11,575 nucleotides of DNA, taken from positions 1 through 11,575 of the forward strand of contig JAOZPP010000088.1 of the NCBI GenBank assembly GCA_029932675.1, read 5' to 3'. The position numbers were made by a program, and so were the translations under genes. Positions 136-3,948 of this stretch are shown here, one piece after another. The notes under the pieces are model-generated. The model was not told the DNA's origin, searched no databases, and saw only the letters and a program-made list of their open reading frames with translations. Source of the stretch: a bacterium (GTDB lineage: Bacteria; SM23-81; DAOVCL01). Position 1 is the first letter of the stretch. The number at the start of each line of letters is the position of its first letter.

Positions 136-3100
136 TTATTTCAACAGAACCATCTTCCTGGTAGCGGTGAAGTCACCGGTCTTAATTCTGTAGAAGTAGA
201 TTCCAGAGGAGATATCCCTCACATCCCAGGTTACGGTATGATGTCCTGCCTCTACCTTCCCCTTCACCAACTCGGCCACCTTTTGCCCTGAGATGTTGTA
301 AACTGTTAAGCTTATATCCACATCCTCCGGCAGATCAAAGGCTATTCTAGTGGTCAGGTTAAACGGGTTAGGATAGTTCTGGTGTAAGGCAAACCAAGTG
401 GGTATCAACTCCACCTTGGCCGTCATCAGATAACCGGCAGCATCAGATGCCTGAACCTCCCTCAGCTCAAACTCACCAGGTATGGTCACCAAATTACCTA
501 CTGCAGTAGCAGTTTCATCCCTCCAGTCCGCACCAATGATGATGATTCTTCGCTCACCATTGACCTCACCAGTTTCCATCTGCATACCAGACGCCCTAAG
601 CACAGGTTCACCACCACCGTCCACTACCAGGTAGAGCCCAGCAACAGGTTTATCGACTGAAACAGTATTACCCTTAACGATCAGATTCAGATCCTCGACC
701 ACAACCTTGGCTCCTCCTCCAGGTCTCTTGGCACCTCCATTGATGATATTCACCAGATAGATGAGATCAGCTATTGTCCACTGATGCCCATCCCTGTTGA
801 TGTCCGAAGCAGTGCCCTGATAGCCCTCATCTTCCAACTCAACCTGGCCCTTGAGATACTCCATAAAGTAGACTGCATCAGCGATGGTATATCTGATCCC
901 ATCCATATTGACATCACCATAAGGGCCATGAATCTCTTCACCCTCAATCTTACCGCCATATAAGCTAATGGGCTGTTCCATGGAACCACAGGGAGGGATG
1001 CCCTCAACATTATAGTCAGTGCCTTGCCAGTAATGACGTTCTTTTGCTGTCCAGAGCTGGGTGCCAAGTTGGTTGGAGAGGGTATTGTCGTTACAAGGAT
1101 CATCAACCTCAAAATCAATGGGTATCTGATAGTTGGGGTCCCAATTAGAACTCACATCAAAGATTAGGTCGAAGAGCTTTTGATCTTGACCAGGCGATAT
1201 AGGAGGGGTTCGCAACTGATTGGGCTTGTTGGCGATGCCTATGATCCTTGCCTTACAACCGTCATCCACCTGCCAGGAACTCCAGTTGAAATACTCGAAT
1301 TGAAAGGAATCACCATCTACATAGTAGTATTTCTGTTCCACATCCACCAACTCAGCCAGGGTGCAATCCCAGTGGATGAGTATGTCGTGGGCACCAACTA
1401 AGTCAACATTACATAAGGTCACCGGGACATCAACAACTTCTCCAGGCCAGGCGAGAACCTTCTTCACTTGCAACGCGAACGGAGGCCACAGATCCTCTAC
1501 ATAGACAGCTACCTGGCAGGTGTCAGCCAGTCCAGAGGTGTCGGTGGCGATGAGGCTAATAGTATACCACGGTCCTAAGTTATGAGCGGAGCATCCAGGT
1601 GTCCACTTCAAAGTATCCTCATTAGGATTGGCCCAATCAGAGCCTGTCCAGTCGAGGTACTGAGTAACAGAGTCACCATCTGAACCGCCCGGGATTTGTG
1701 GGGTGGATTCCCATTGAATGTGGACCAGGTCACCACTGTCAGGGTCACTGGCAGTAACAACAATGATCGCTGTATCTACCTTCTCCATTGCCCAGATCGT
1801 ATCAGGAGAACATAAGATCTGCGGCGGTTTGTTGGTCACCACCTTCTGGTTTAAAAGAACGAGGACATTGTCGGAACCGAAAGTTCCAGTCGTCAGATCG
1901 AGATCACCATCACCGTCAAGATCTGCAGCAAAAACAGACCAAGGATGATATTCAATGGGATAATCCGAATGGGGAGCAAAGGTGCCATCCCCATTGTTCA
2001 AAAGAACCGAGACATTACCGGAACCCCAATTGGGACCCATATTTGCAGTTATGAGGTCGAGGTCACCATCACCATCAAGATCTCCAGCAAACAATGACAT
2101 GGGGACAATGCCGACTGGATAGATGGAATGGGGAGCAAAGGTGCCATCTCCATTGTTCAAAAGAACAGAAACATCGTCGGAATGGTTATTTGCAGTCGCT
2201 AAGTCGAGGTCACCATCTCCGTCAAGATCAGCAGCAAAAATTTGTGTAGGCCAATCACCTACTGGATAAATTGAACCGGGGCCGAAGGTACCATCCCCTT
2301 TGTTCAAAAGAACAGAAACATCGTTGGAACCGTTATTTGTAATCGCCAAATCAAGGTCACCATCACCATCAAGATCAGCAGCAAAAACTGAGAAAGCCCA
2401 ATCACTTACTGGAAAGGTTAAATCGGGGCCAAAGGTGCCATCTCCGTTGTTCAAGAGCACCGAGACATTATTGGACTCACAATTTGCAGTCACCAAGTCG
2501 AGGTCACCATCACCATCAAGATCAGCAGCAAAAATCGAATGAGACCAGTCAGCAGATGTCTGATTGGTAGAATATGGGGCAAAGGTGCCATCACCATTAT
2601 TTAGTAAAACATAAACATCGCGAGAAGCAGTAGCCAGGTCGATGTCACCGTCTCCGTCAAGATCAGCAGCAAAAATCGAACTAGCCCCACTATCTGTTGG
2701 GTAAGCGGAATAGTGGCTAAAGGTGCCATCTCCGTTGTTCAGTAGAACATAGACATTGCCGGAAGCAATTGCCAAGTCGAGGTCACCATCTCCGTCAAGA
2801 TCAGCAGCAAAAATTTGTGTAGGCCAATCACCTACTGGATAGGCCGAATCTAAGACGAAAGCACCAGCACCATCATTCACAACATTGGTAAAAGACCAGA
2901 CATAGCTGCTGTCCAAGGGAACCCCTTGTGAGGATCTTATATCGGTAGTGAGCACCACGGTTACTACCTCTCCTTCATCGAAATCGCTGGAAGGATCGAA
3001 AATTGCTGTTCTGGTCTGGCTGTTATAGCTAATCATCCCCCGATGTAACCCCGTAAACATTGCATTCACCACAAAGGTAGAGTCGTTAATGGTTGTCTCA

Positions 3101-3270
3101 TCCATATCTTTATCGAAGGTCACCGATATATCGGTGGAAACCGGCACATTCAGCTCATTCTGTGCAGGTGAAGTGGAACTGATGTGGGGAATCTCCTCGG
3201 CAAAGCCTACCCGAACTATGTTGGCAAAAAGTGCCAAAAATACTGCTAAAGTGAAAGGCAAGTACCTCAT
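136..3270 (-). CDS. Secreted modular protein: Big_5 / seven FG-GAP repeats / cohesin-like / dockerin / T9SS-type C-terminal domain
   Basis: This 1044-residue exported protein is probably surface-bound or extracellular; no enzymatic domain is visible. Residues 1-24 form a signal peptide with a likely cleavage after Ala24. Residues about 25-130 resemble the SbsA-type Ig-like fold (Big_5). Residues about 144-475 hold seven FG-GAP/VCBS units, each with the calcium-loop motif DLDGDGDLDL and most ending LLNNGDGTF. An Ig/cadherin-like segment follows at about 480-590, then a cohesin-like beta domain at about 597-740. A type-I dockerin at about 785-848 has two calcium loops, GDVNMDG and SDINRDG. The tail at about 960-1044 contains NYPNPFN and ends GIYFYRIKTGDFTATRKMVLLK-like, typical of FlgD-like/Por-type sorting domains. 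The ATG start has AAGGAGGT eight bases upstream. Expression is predicted to be controlled by the c-di-GMP riboswitch in its leader. An adhesion or matrix role is inference. Confidence 0.93.
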   Translation of the reverse strand: MRYLPFTLAVFLALFANIVRVGFAEEIPHISSTSPAQNELNVPVSTDISVTFDKDMDETTINDSTFVVNAMFTGLHRGMISYNSQTRTAIFDPSSDFDEGEVVTVVLTTDIRSSQGVPLDSSYVWSFTNVVNDGAGAFVLDSAYPVGDWPTQIFAADLDGDGDLDLAIASGNVYVLLNNGDGTFSHYSAYPTDSGASSIFAADLDGDGDIDLATASRDVYVLLNNGDGTFAPYSTNQTSADWSHSIFAADLDGDGDLDLVTANCESNNVSVLLNNGDGTFGPDLTFPVSDWAFSVFAADLDGDGDLDLAITNNGSNDVSVLLNKGDGTFGPGSIYPVGDWPTQIFAADLDGDGDLDLATANNHSDDVSVLLNNGDGTFAPHSIYPVGIVPMSLFAGDLDGDGDLDLITANMGPNWGSGNVSVLLNNGDGTFAPHSDYPIEYHPWSVFAADLDGDGDLDLTTGTFGSDNVLVLLNQKVVTNKPPQILCSPDTIWAMEKVDTAIIVVTASDPDSGDLVHIQWESTPQIPGGSDGDSVTQYLDWTGSDWANPNEDTLKWTPGCSAHNLGPWYTISLIATDTSGLADTCQVAVYVEDLWPPFALQVKKVLAWPGEVVDVPVTLCNVDLVGAHDILIHWDCTLAELVDVEQKYYYVDGDSFQFEYFNWSSWQVDDGCKARIIGIANKPNQLRTPPISPGQDQKLFDLIFDVSSNWDPNYQIPIDFEVDDPCNDNTLSNQLGTQLWTAKERHYWQGTDYNVEGIPPCGSMEQPISLYGGKIEGEEIHGPYGDVNMDGIRYTIADAVYFMEYLKGQVELEDEGYQGTASDINRDGHQWTIADLIYLVNIINGGAKRPGGGAKVVVEDLNLIVKGNTVSVDKPVAGLYLVVDGGGEPVLRASGMQMETGEVNGERRIIIIGADWRDETATAVGNLVTIPGEFELREVQASDAAGYLMTAKVELIPTWFALHQNYPNPFNLTTRIAFDLPEDVDISLTVYNISGQKVAELVKGKVEAGHHTVTWDVRDISSGIYFYRIKTGDFTATRKMVLLK
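1843..2841 (-). repeat. Seven in-gene tandem FG-GAP coding repeats
   Basis: Units of roughly 53-62 codons repeat seven times within the large secreted protein gene. Each encodes (I/V/L)FA(A/G)DLDGDGD(L/I)DL followed 10-20 residues later by LLNNGDGTF or a variant. Together they should fold as a beta-propeller with bound calcium. The first and fifth units share an identical 68-base run (2774-2841 and 2201-2268), a sign of recent duplication or gene conversion. Confidence 0.9.
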
Positions 3271-3395
3271 GATACCTCCTTATTTACTCGTTGATTGTTT
3301 ATACAATTATTCCTTTGTGGACAGACCTCCCAACCACCTACGGGGGATCAAAACAAGTTCTGACCTGTCAATACGCTTTGAATGTATATGCCCCA

Positions 3396-3441
3396 ACAAA
3401 CAAAAACCGACCTACCTTTATCTGACTCTCTGGCAGCCCGG
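3396..3441 (-). terminator. Riboswitch expression-platform terminator
   Basis: On the minus strand CCGGGCTGCC (3441-3432) can pair with GGTAGGTCGG (3416-3407) in nine of ten positions, counting G-U pairs, with one G-G mismatch. A 15-base loop separates the arms and TTTTTG plus more T follow at once (3406 downwards). The 5' arm is also the last conserved hairpin of the c-di-GMP aptamer, so aptamer folding and terminator formation exclude each other. Confidence 0.6.
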
Positions 3442-3556
3442 CTGTCTAGCTTTTCGACGTTCAATAAAAATACTAAACGTTTGTTTTAGACCCCGGGCTT
3501 TGCTATTTACAGTTTCCACTACAGGAAAGGCGGGATTTGCCCCTATCGGGAACACG
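3431..3556 (-). promoter_or_regulatory. Cyclic-di-GMP-I (GEMM-I) riboswitch aptamer
   Basis: Read on the minus strand, the conserved blocks of this class appear in order. They are GGGGCAAATCC (3543-3533; consensus GGGCAAACC), a hairpin with a GGAA (GNRA) tetraloop closed by AGT/ACT, then AGCAAAGCCCGGGGTCTAA (consensus ACGCAAAGCC-CGGGUCUAA). A variable arm follows, closed by ACGTT/AACGT, and finally ACAGCCGGGCTGCC (consensus GGCAGCCGGGUUGCC). The ligand-contacting position before GGC is G, which favours c-di-GMP over the A-containing c-GAMP variants. The aptamer starts a few bases after a strong promoter and lies about 160 bases upstream of the secreted protein gene, a known type of target for this class. 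The outer closing stem is not clear, so the ends are approximate. Confidence 0.82.
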
Positions 3557-3569
3557 ATCTAACATACTA

Positions 3570-3598
3570 AATATAATCAATTATAACCTTTCTGTCAA
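3570..3598 (-). promoter_or_regulatory. Sigma-70-type promoter of the riboswitch-secreted protein unit
   Basis: On the minus strand a perfect -35 TTGACA (3598-3593) and a -10 TATATT (3575-3570, five of six matches) are separated by exactly 17 bases. The transcript would start near 3562, just before the c-di-GMP aptamer, giving a leader of about 290 bases before the ATG. Confidence 0.75.
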
Positions 3599-3600
3599 CA

Positions 3601-3948
3601 TCTCTCTGCCCTTTTGCGTAGGCTGTTATCTCACAAAATTGCCCCATTGGGAAGTTCCTGCAGGAGTCACCAGGACTATAGGGAAAGGATTAAAACATTA
3701 GGATCCTTCCTCTGGACAGCCTCCACTTTGCCTACTCTCTACCTCCTGGTACCAAAGACAAGGGAAAAATAACTTGACACCCTTTAAATGAGGCATTAAC
3801 CTTAACCAATGTAGGTAACTTCTGCATCTCCCTCCACGAATGGATTTCTGGCGATATTACTGATGATCACAGCCGACAAAGAAATGATAGATGAACAATA
3901 TCAGTGGGAATGACATCTTGGATTCTGCGTCTTTATCTTCATTTTAAC
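3601..3948. other. Intergenic DNA without a recognisable gene
   Basis: No convincing coding frame, RNA gene or repeat is seen between the divergent transcription units. A possible weak plus-strand promoter is TTGACA at 3774-3779 with TAACCT 17 bases on (3797-3802), but the -10 matches only three of six positions. The region is divergent-promoter space. Confidence 0.5.

Follow-up and report, generated by a model that had tools for sequence, protein, structure and literature searches.

A diverged c-di-GMP-I type element, one of a genomic set favouring T9SS cargo, in the leader of a gene for a predicted T9SS-exported FG-GAP/cohesin protein

The window analysed here, an 11,575-nt stretch of bacterial DNA, is the entire contig C105 of a 3.03 Mb genome in 116 contigs. 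Its minus strand encodes a 1044-residue protein (positions 136 to 3270) that has a signal-like N terminus, a Big_5 domain, seven FG-GAP stretches, a cohesin domain, a dockerin-like motif and a type A sorting tail of the type IX secretion system (T9SS). The Big_5 and seven FG-GAP matches are above their curated cut-offs, as are the cohesin (PF00963; 27.1 bits against a cut-off of 24.1) and the sorting tail (TIGR04183 and PF18962; 49.5 bits against 23, and 43.5 against 27). The seven FG-GAP repeats, the cohesin-like domain and the T9SS-type tail had all been named in a sequence-only reading of this DNA and are borne out. The dockerin that it also named is dockerin-like at best, because the match to the type I dockerin (PF00404) is weak (16.2 bits, E = 0.012) and under the cut-off of 22.9.

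The gene is preceded by a leader (about 3598 to 3271, minus strand) made up of a promoter, an aptamer and an intrinsic terminator. The promoter (3598-3570, minus strand) has the hexamers TTGACA (3598-3593) and TATATT (3575-3570) separated by a 17-nt spacer; it matches the consensus at 11 of 12 positions and was correctly described in the earlier reading as near-consensus. That reading was also right about the terminator (3442-3402, minus strand), in which GCCGGGCUGCC (3442-3432) pairs with GGUAGGUCGG (3416-3407) and is followed by UUUUU (3406-3402), and which has a folding energy of -14.2 kcal/mol and a 15-nt loop. A simple terminator scan did not list this long-looped hairpin on the minus strand, and reported only a hairpin on the plus strand. 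The 5′ arm of the terminator, GCCGGGCUGCC, is the aptamer's own 3′ strand, and contains the residue equivalent to C92 of the Vc2 aptamer (at 3433).

The conserved blocks of the c-di-GMP-I (GEMM-I) aptamer are present in the expected order, as had been claimed, at 3551-3429 on the minus strand, as judged from the sequence and from its Rfam alignments. An Infernal search with RF01051, which had been suggested as a check, gave a match of 28.3 bits at this position with an E-value of 0.0019 across the whole genome (3.03 Mb, 116 contigs); this falls short of the model's gathering score of 35 bits, and Rfam run at the gathering score had no matches in the window. In a permissive Rfam run on 451 bases (window positions 3250-3700), the variant model RF03167 (c-di-GMP-I-GGC) matched 3550-3428 on the minus strand with 25.9 bits (E = 5 x 10−4), and all matches outside the GEMM-I clan were chance ones. 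Although the window copy shares the 3′ GCUGCC form with the GGC variant, we dropped this label, both because the score is far too low (the gathering score of RF03167 is 59 bits) and because RF03167 has G at the position equivalent to A47, where the window copy has A. A much stronger match was obtained with R2, a leave-one-out covariance model made from other copies in the genus and trained without the window sequence: it scored the window at 69.3 bits (E = 2.9 x 10−17), covering the 3′ half of the aptamer, and its next-best match inside the window had only 9.5 bits. Because R2 also picks up GEMM-I RNAs of the canonical type in unrelated lineages, it ties the family seen in the window to the known GEMM-I class.

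The ligand contacts in Vc2 are G20, A47 and C92 (PMC4744006), and the equivalents of all three are kept in the window copy. The G20-equivalent is in GGGGCAAA, the P1/P2 junction block (3543-3536, minus strand), and was read from the sequence and the Rfam alignment, and the A47-equivalent is position 3501 in GCAAAGCC, the P2/P3 junction block (3503-3496, minus strand), placed by alignment. P3 (3499-3435, minus strand) has a basal helix, in which 3499-3487 pair with 3448-3435, and continues in a 10-bp hairpin (3480-3457); all 12 of the 12 pairs in the drawn P3 helix form on folding. The G83-equivalent (3442) is retained, whereas the position where GEMM-I carries C44 is an A (3504), so the C44-G83 interhelical pair is lost, according to positions that we assigned manually, using the conserved blocks on either side, and to our own translation of them into Vc2 numbering. 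The interhelical Watson-Crick pair has been described as universally conserved in GEMM-I (PMC4744006). The best local hairpin in the P2 region, UUUCC[UGUAGU]GGAAA (3528-3513, minus strand), has a UGUAGU loop and puts GGAA inside the stem, folding it with GGAA as the loop gives a less stable structure, and Infernal skips the region as a 32-nt local end, which makes the previously reported GNRA loop doubtful. P1 is short; it keeps two of three model pairs and could be extended by GUUC/GAGU pairing that includes two wobbles, and a fold with both P1 and P3 forced is about 10 kcal/mol costlier than the free fold.

Compared with RF01051 RNAs, the element has the same order of blocks, the same P3 core, the equivalents of G20, A47, G83 and C92, and the same kind of position in a leader. 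It differs in P3, in which the usual bulged base after AGCC is absent while a G and a long hairpin at the distal end are additional. We call it diverged because of its sub-threshold Rfam score, the lack of a clear GNRA hairpin in P2, the weak P1 and the A in place of C44. As far as its sequence goes, it is a diverged GEMM-I derivative that we do not file as a plain member of the class, and it probably still binds c-di-GMP.

The element is not alone in its genome. RF01051 has three matches with E < 0.01 in the whole genome: the window (28.3 bits), contig C103 (46 bits) and contig C85 (72 bits), the last of which is a canonical GEMM-I RNA. By searching for the 3′ core AYAGCCGGGYTGYM we found many more, bringing the number of elements to 13. 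They comprise the canonical type (C85 and C103), set A, whose five copies are almost identical and have a long P2 (on C2, C11, C19, C34 and C109), a second long-P2 set (set B, one copy on C3 and two each on C84 and C93), and the window copy. R1, a covariance model of the P3-plus-terminator half, lists all 13 (C103 marginally, E = 0.79) and adds relatives from the same genus. A pattern scan for elements that combine the GCCNNGGGG form and a long P3 had no matches in our genome contig collection, which possibly does not include this genome itself. The C at the C44 position is kept by C85, by set A and by the copies in a sister species (genome G001). From promoter to terminator the set A copies (L053, L054, L055, L056 and L057) hardly differ, and other short repeats (GGGACAGGGCTTCAGCCCTGTCC and AAATAGGAAGTGTCCCTATTTT) are found next to them, which gives the impression of promoter-riboswitch cassettes copied from place to place. 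In the C103 aptamer (4756-4448, minus strand; L062), more than 200 nt of inserted P3 sequence apparently separate the two conserved halves, and in one sister-species copy (G001 C120; L031:2627-2731, minus strand) the 3′ half and the terminator are kept but the P2 hairpin seems to be absent.

The pairing between the aptamer's 3′ strand and the terminator is shared across this family. Over the 13 copies, 97% of cells in the terminator helix are paired, compared to 15-56% in controls slid by 1-3 columns, and the P3 helix with its 3′-side AG bulge is present with 92% of cells paired. Terminator complementarity extends to 9 of 10 positions in 10 of the 13 copies, including the window copy, and to 8 of 10 in another; shuffled sequences reach 9 in 0.7% of cases. 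In the C93 and C84b copies the terminator pairing is lost (6 of 10 pairs), and these copies precede toxin-antitoxin-like or small genes, not T9SS genes. The variable terminator pairs show mostly G-C/G-U changes, with one two-sided change. Covariation tests on the terminator and P3 pairings of the 13 copies were no better than column shuffles, because the copies are closely related, so the case for pairing rests on the slid controls and the complementarity.

We found that the elements tend to lie ahead of genes for T9SS cargo. The genome encodes the T9SS translocon SprA and has 124 T9SS tail matches. In 6 of the 11 assessable elements, the first gene of substantial size (at least 150 aa) in the same orientation codes for a protein with a T9SS tail or a FlgD-like tail: the window, C85 (a GH18-containing protein of 1901 aa), C103, C2 (LVIVD repeats), C11 and C3, with a smaller ORF between the element and the tail gene in C103 and C11. 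The enrichment has a hypergeometric P of about 3 x 10−6, assuming 2,700 genes, which is our estimate of the genome-wide count. In the sister species, two elements lead T9SS-tail proteins and one (G001 C120) leads a secreted M1 peptidase that is cut by the contig end. Elsewhere in the phylum, a copy in genome G002 leads pseudopilin-like genes (judged from sequence) and one in G003 leads an HD-domain protein, both the usual sort of c-di-GMP target. The window element is one of a genomic set that favours T9SS cargo. We considered whether the closest sister-species homolog of the window's protein (an ORF on G001 C43) shares the leader, and rejected this: the sole element found there leads the next T9SS gene.

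As regards the ligand, the genome contains four GGEEF and one GGDDF diguanylate cyclase domains, the four strongest carrying GGEEF signatures, and two PilZ proteins, so c-di-GMP is likely to be made. At the C92-equivalent, four of the paralogues carry U (GCUGUC): L058:177-285, L059:2209-2301, L060:9693-9794 and L103 (C93:35115-35221). The C92U elements lie on C3, C84 (at 37718) and C93. In the C92U copy on C3, the terminator arm has a matching G-to-A change. To judge from the substitution, the C92U paralogues may sense a different cyclic dinucleotide.

With the promoter, the aptamer homology, the overlapping terminator, the paralogue family, the T9SS-tail association and the cyclases all computed as above, we infer the identity of the ligand, an ON polarity and a role in surface attachment. 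We think it rather likely that the leader is a transcription-attenuation riboswitch of GEMM-I descent, by which c-di-GMP turns ON a T9SS-exported FG-GAP/cohesin protein. Transcription would start just downstream of the promoter (3598-3570). With ligand present, most likely c-di-GMP, GCCGGGCUGCC, the 3′ strand of the aptamer, would stay engaged in P3 and at the P1 junction, leaving GGUAGGUCGG without a partner, and the polymerase would read through into the gene. With ligand absent, GCCGGGCUGCC would pair with GGUAGGUCGG ahead of the U-tract and transcription would stop, so that the large surface protein would be made when c-di-GMP is high. It is the overlap between the aptamer's 3′ strand and the terminator's 5′ arm that predicts the ON polarity, and in forced folds the P3 state (-51.2 kcal/mol) and the terminator state (-46.0 kcal/mol) are close in energy and mutually exclusive. 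Polarity is not deducible from class, because the class I switches of C. difficile are OFF switches (PMC6366702). Bc2 of Bacillus thuringiensis, on the other hand, is a class I ON switch that works by read-through and controls the collagen adhesion protein gene cap (PMC6366702). It resembles the window leader in class, in the ON mechanism proposed here and in its secreted adhesion-type target, but comes from another phylum, whereas the window's target is a T9SS cargo and its element belongs to a set of paralogues. In Vibrio cholerae, Vc1, which precedes gbpA (PMC4744006), is likewise a GEMM-I RNA with positive control of a secreted attachment protein; unlike the window leader, whose terminator overlaps the aptamer, it has no apparent terminator. 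The sequence-only reading, in which a c-di-GMP-I riboswitch controls a giant FG-GAP/cohesin protein secreted by the T9SS, is thus still the best explanation, amended in that the copy is diverged, that the dockerin is only dockerin-like and that a direction of switching, which the reading did not give, is added, and it gains support from the paralogues, the relatives and the genome's c-di-GMP enzymes. The protein may act in biofilms, as that reading suggested.

Loss of the C44-equivalent, the lack of a clear P2 tetraloop, the weak P1 and the sub-threshold Rfam score would all be expected if the aptamer had decayed into a ligand-blind relic, with the leader now serving as a leaky terminator or constitutive attenuator. 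We regard this as unlikely, because the window copy retains P3, the equivalents of G20, A47 and C92, and the competing terminator; because it keeps 9 of 10 terminator pairs when C93 and C84b have fallen to 6 of 10; and because a strong terminator that nothing relieved would keep the gene off. It is quite improbable that the same architecture responds to another cyclic dinucleotide, such as 3′,3′-cGAMP. Natural GEMM-I variants have changed their specificity to c-AMP-GMP (PMC7266159), this genome has its own C92U paralogues, and in the permissive run the variant family RF03167 was the better-scoring Rfam model for the window copy, but that copy has the c-di-GMP-type G20, A47 and C92 without the substitutions linked to other ligands, and the four strongest cyclase domains have GGEEF signatures.

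When the full leader is folded freely, its minimum-energy structure has a 5′ segment, CCCGCCUUUCC, paired with the 3′ strand of the terminator. This segment could act as an antiterminator that is removed when ligand binds, making an OFF switch of a kind that exists in class I (PMC6366702). However, P3 also forms in the free fold, so the same state excludes the terminator, and CCCGCCUUUCC is unconserved among the copies whereas the aptamer/terminator overlap is conserved; an OFF switch is accordingly very improbable in our view. That the element is no riboswitch at all, only a dispersed promoter-plus-terminator repeat spreading by copying, seems scarcely credible: the five set A copies do hardly differ and, like another set of repeats that shares their terminator, lie scattered through the genome, but the core matches GEMM-I in unrelated lineages and the copies sit at non-random positions ahead of different T9SS genes.

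If the attenuation riboswitch that we favour is real, the T9SS secretome of an uncultivated lineage would be tied directly to c-di-GMP at the RNA level. Searches of our paper collection for riboswitches with type IX secretion, and for c-di-GMP riboswitches with dockerins, returned nothing on point, and what may be new here is the T9SS-cargo riboswitch set, together with natural C92U paralogues possibly sensing another dinucleotide. The T9SS association and the C92U paralogues are the strongest new leads, and the latter are natural variants for specificity tests. More speculatively, a genus-wide, multiplied GEMM-I family with remodelled P2 and P3 might form a coordinated c-di-GMP switch for T9SS cargo, in which the C92U members would sense a second dinucleotide and so give the secretome two parallel inputs; we consider this extension doubtful. 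A real riboswitch set can fall under the Rfam threshold, and the numbers of c-di-GMP riboswitches counted in genomes of this kind are therefore probably underestimates.

We also noted further dispersed repeats, in which a CTCCAGC-type hairpin arm is followed by GCTGGAGTCCAATAGG and the terminator GCAGGTCGGTTTTT. They share the style of their terminator with the family, but not the P3 core, and occur at L053:438-546 (C2:8937-9045), L105 (C90:365-468), L106 (C78:5328-5432), L107 (C112:8604-8713) and L108 (G001 C57:1835-1934). The genes that the C103 riboswitch leads (L062:537-4298, minus strand) encode a PqqD protein, a small peptide containing Cys, a protein with a T9SS tail and an enzyme of the radical SAM/SPASM type, and from this gene content the locus resembles a RiPP pathway controlled by a c-di-GMP-I riboswitch. 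In an unrelated genome, a GEMM-I element (L253, G241 C60:32241-32370, minus strand) lies ahead of the gene for a secreted protein of 834 aa that ends in a FlgD-like tail, and the link between GEMM-I and tail-bearing secreted proteins may be wider.
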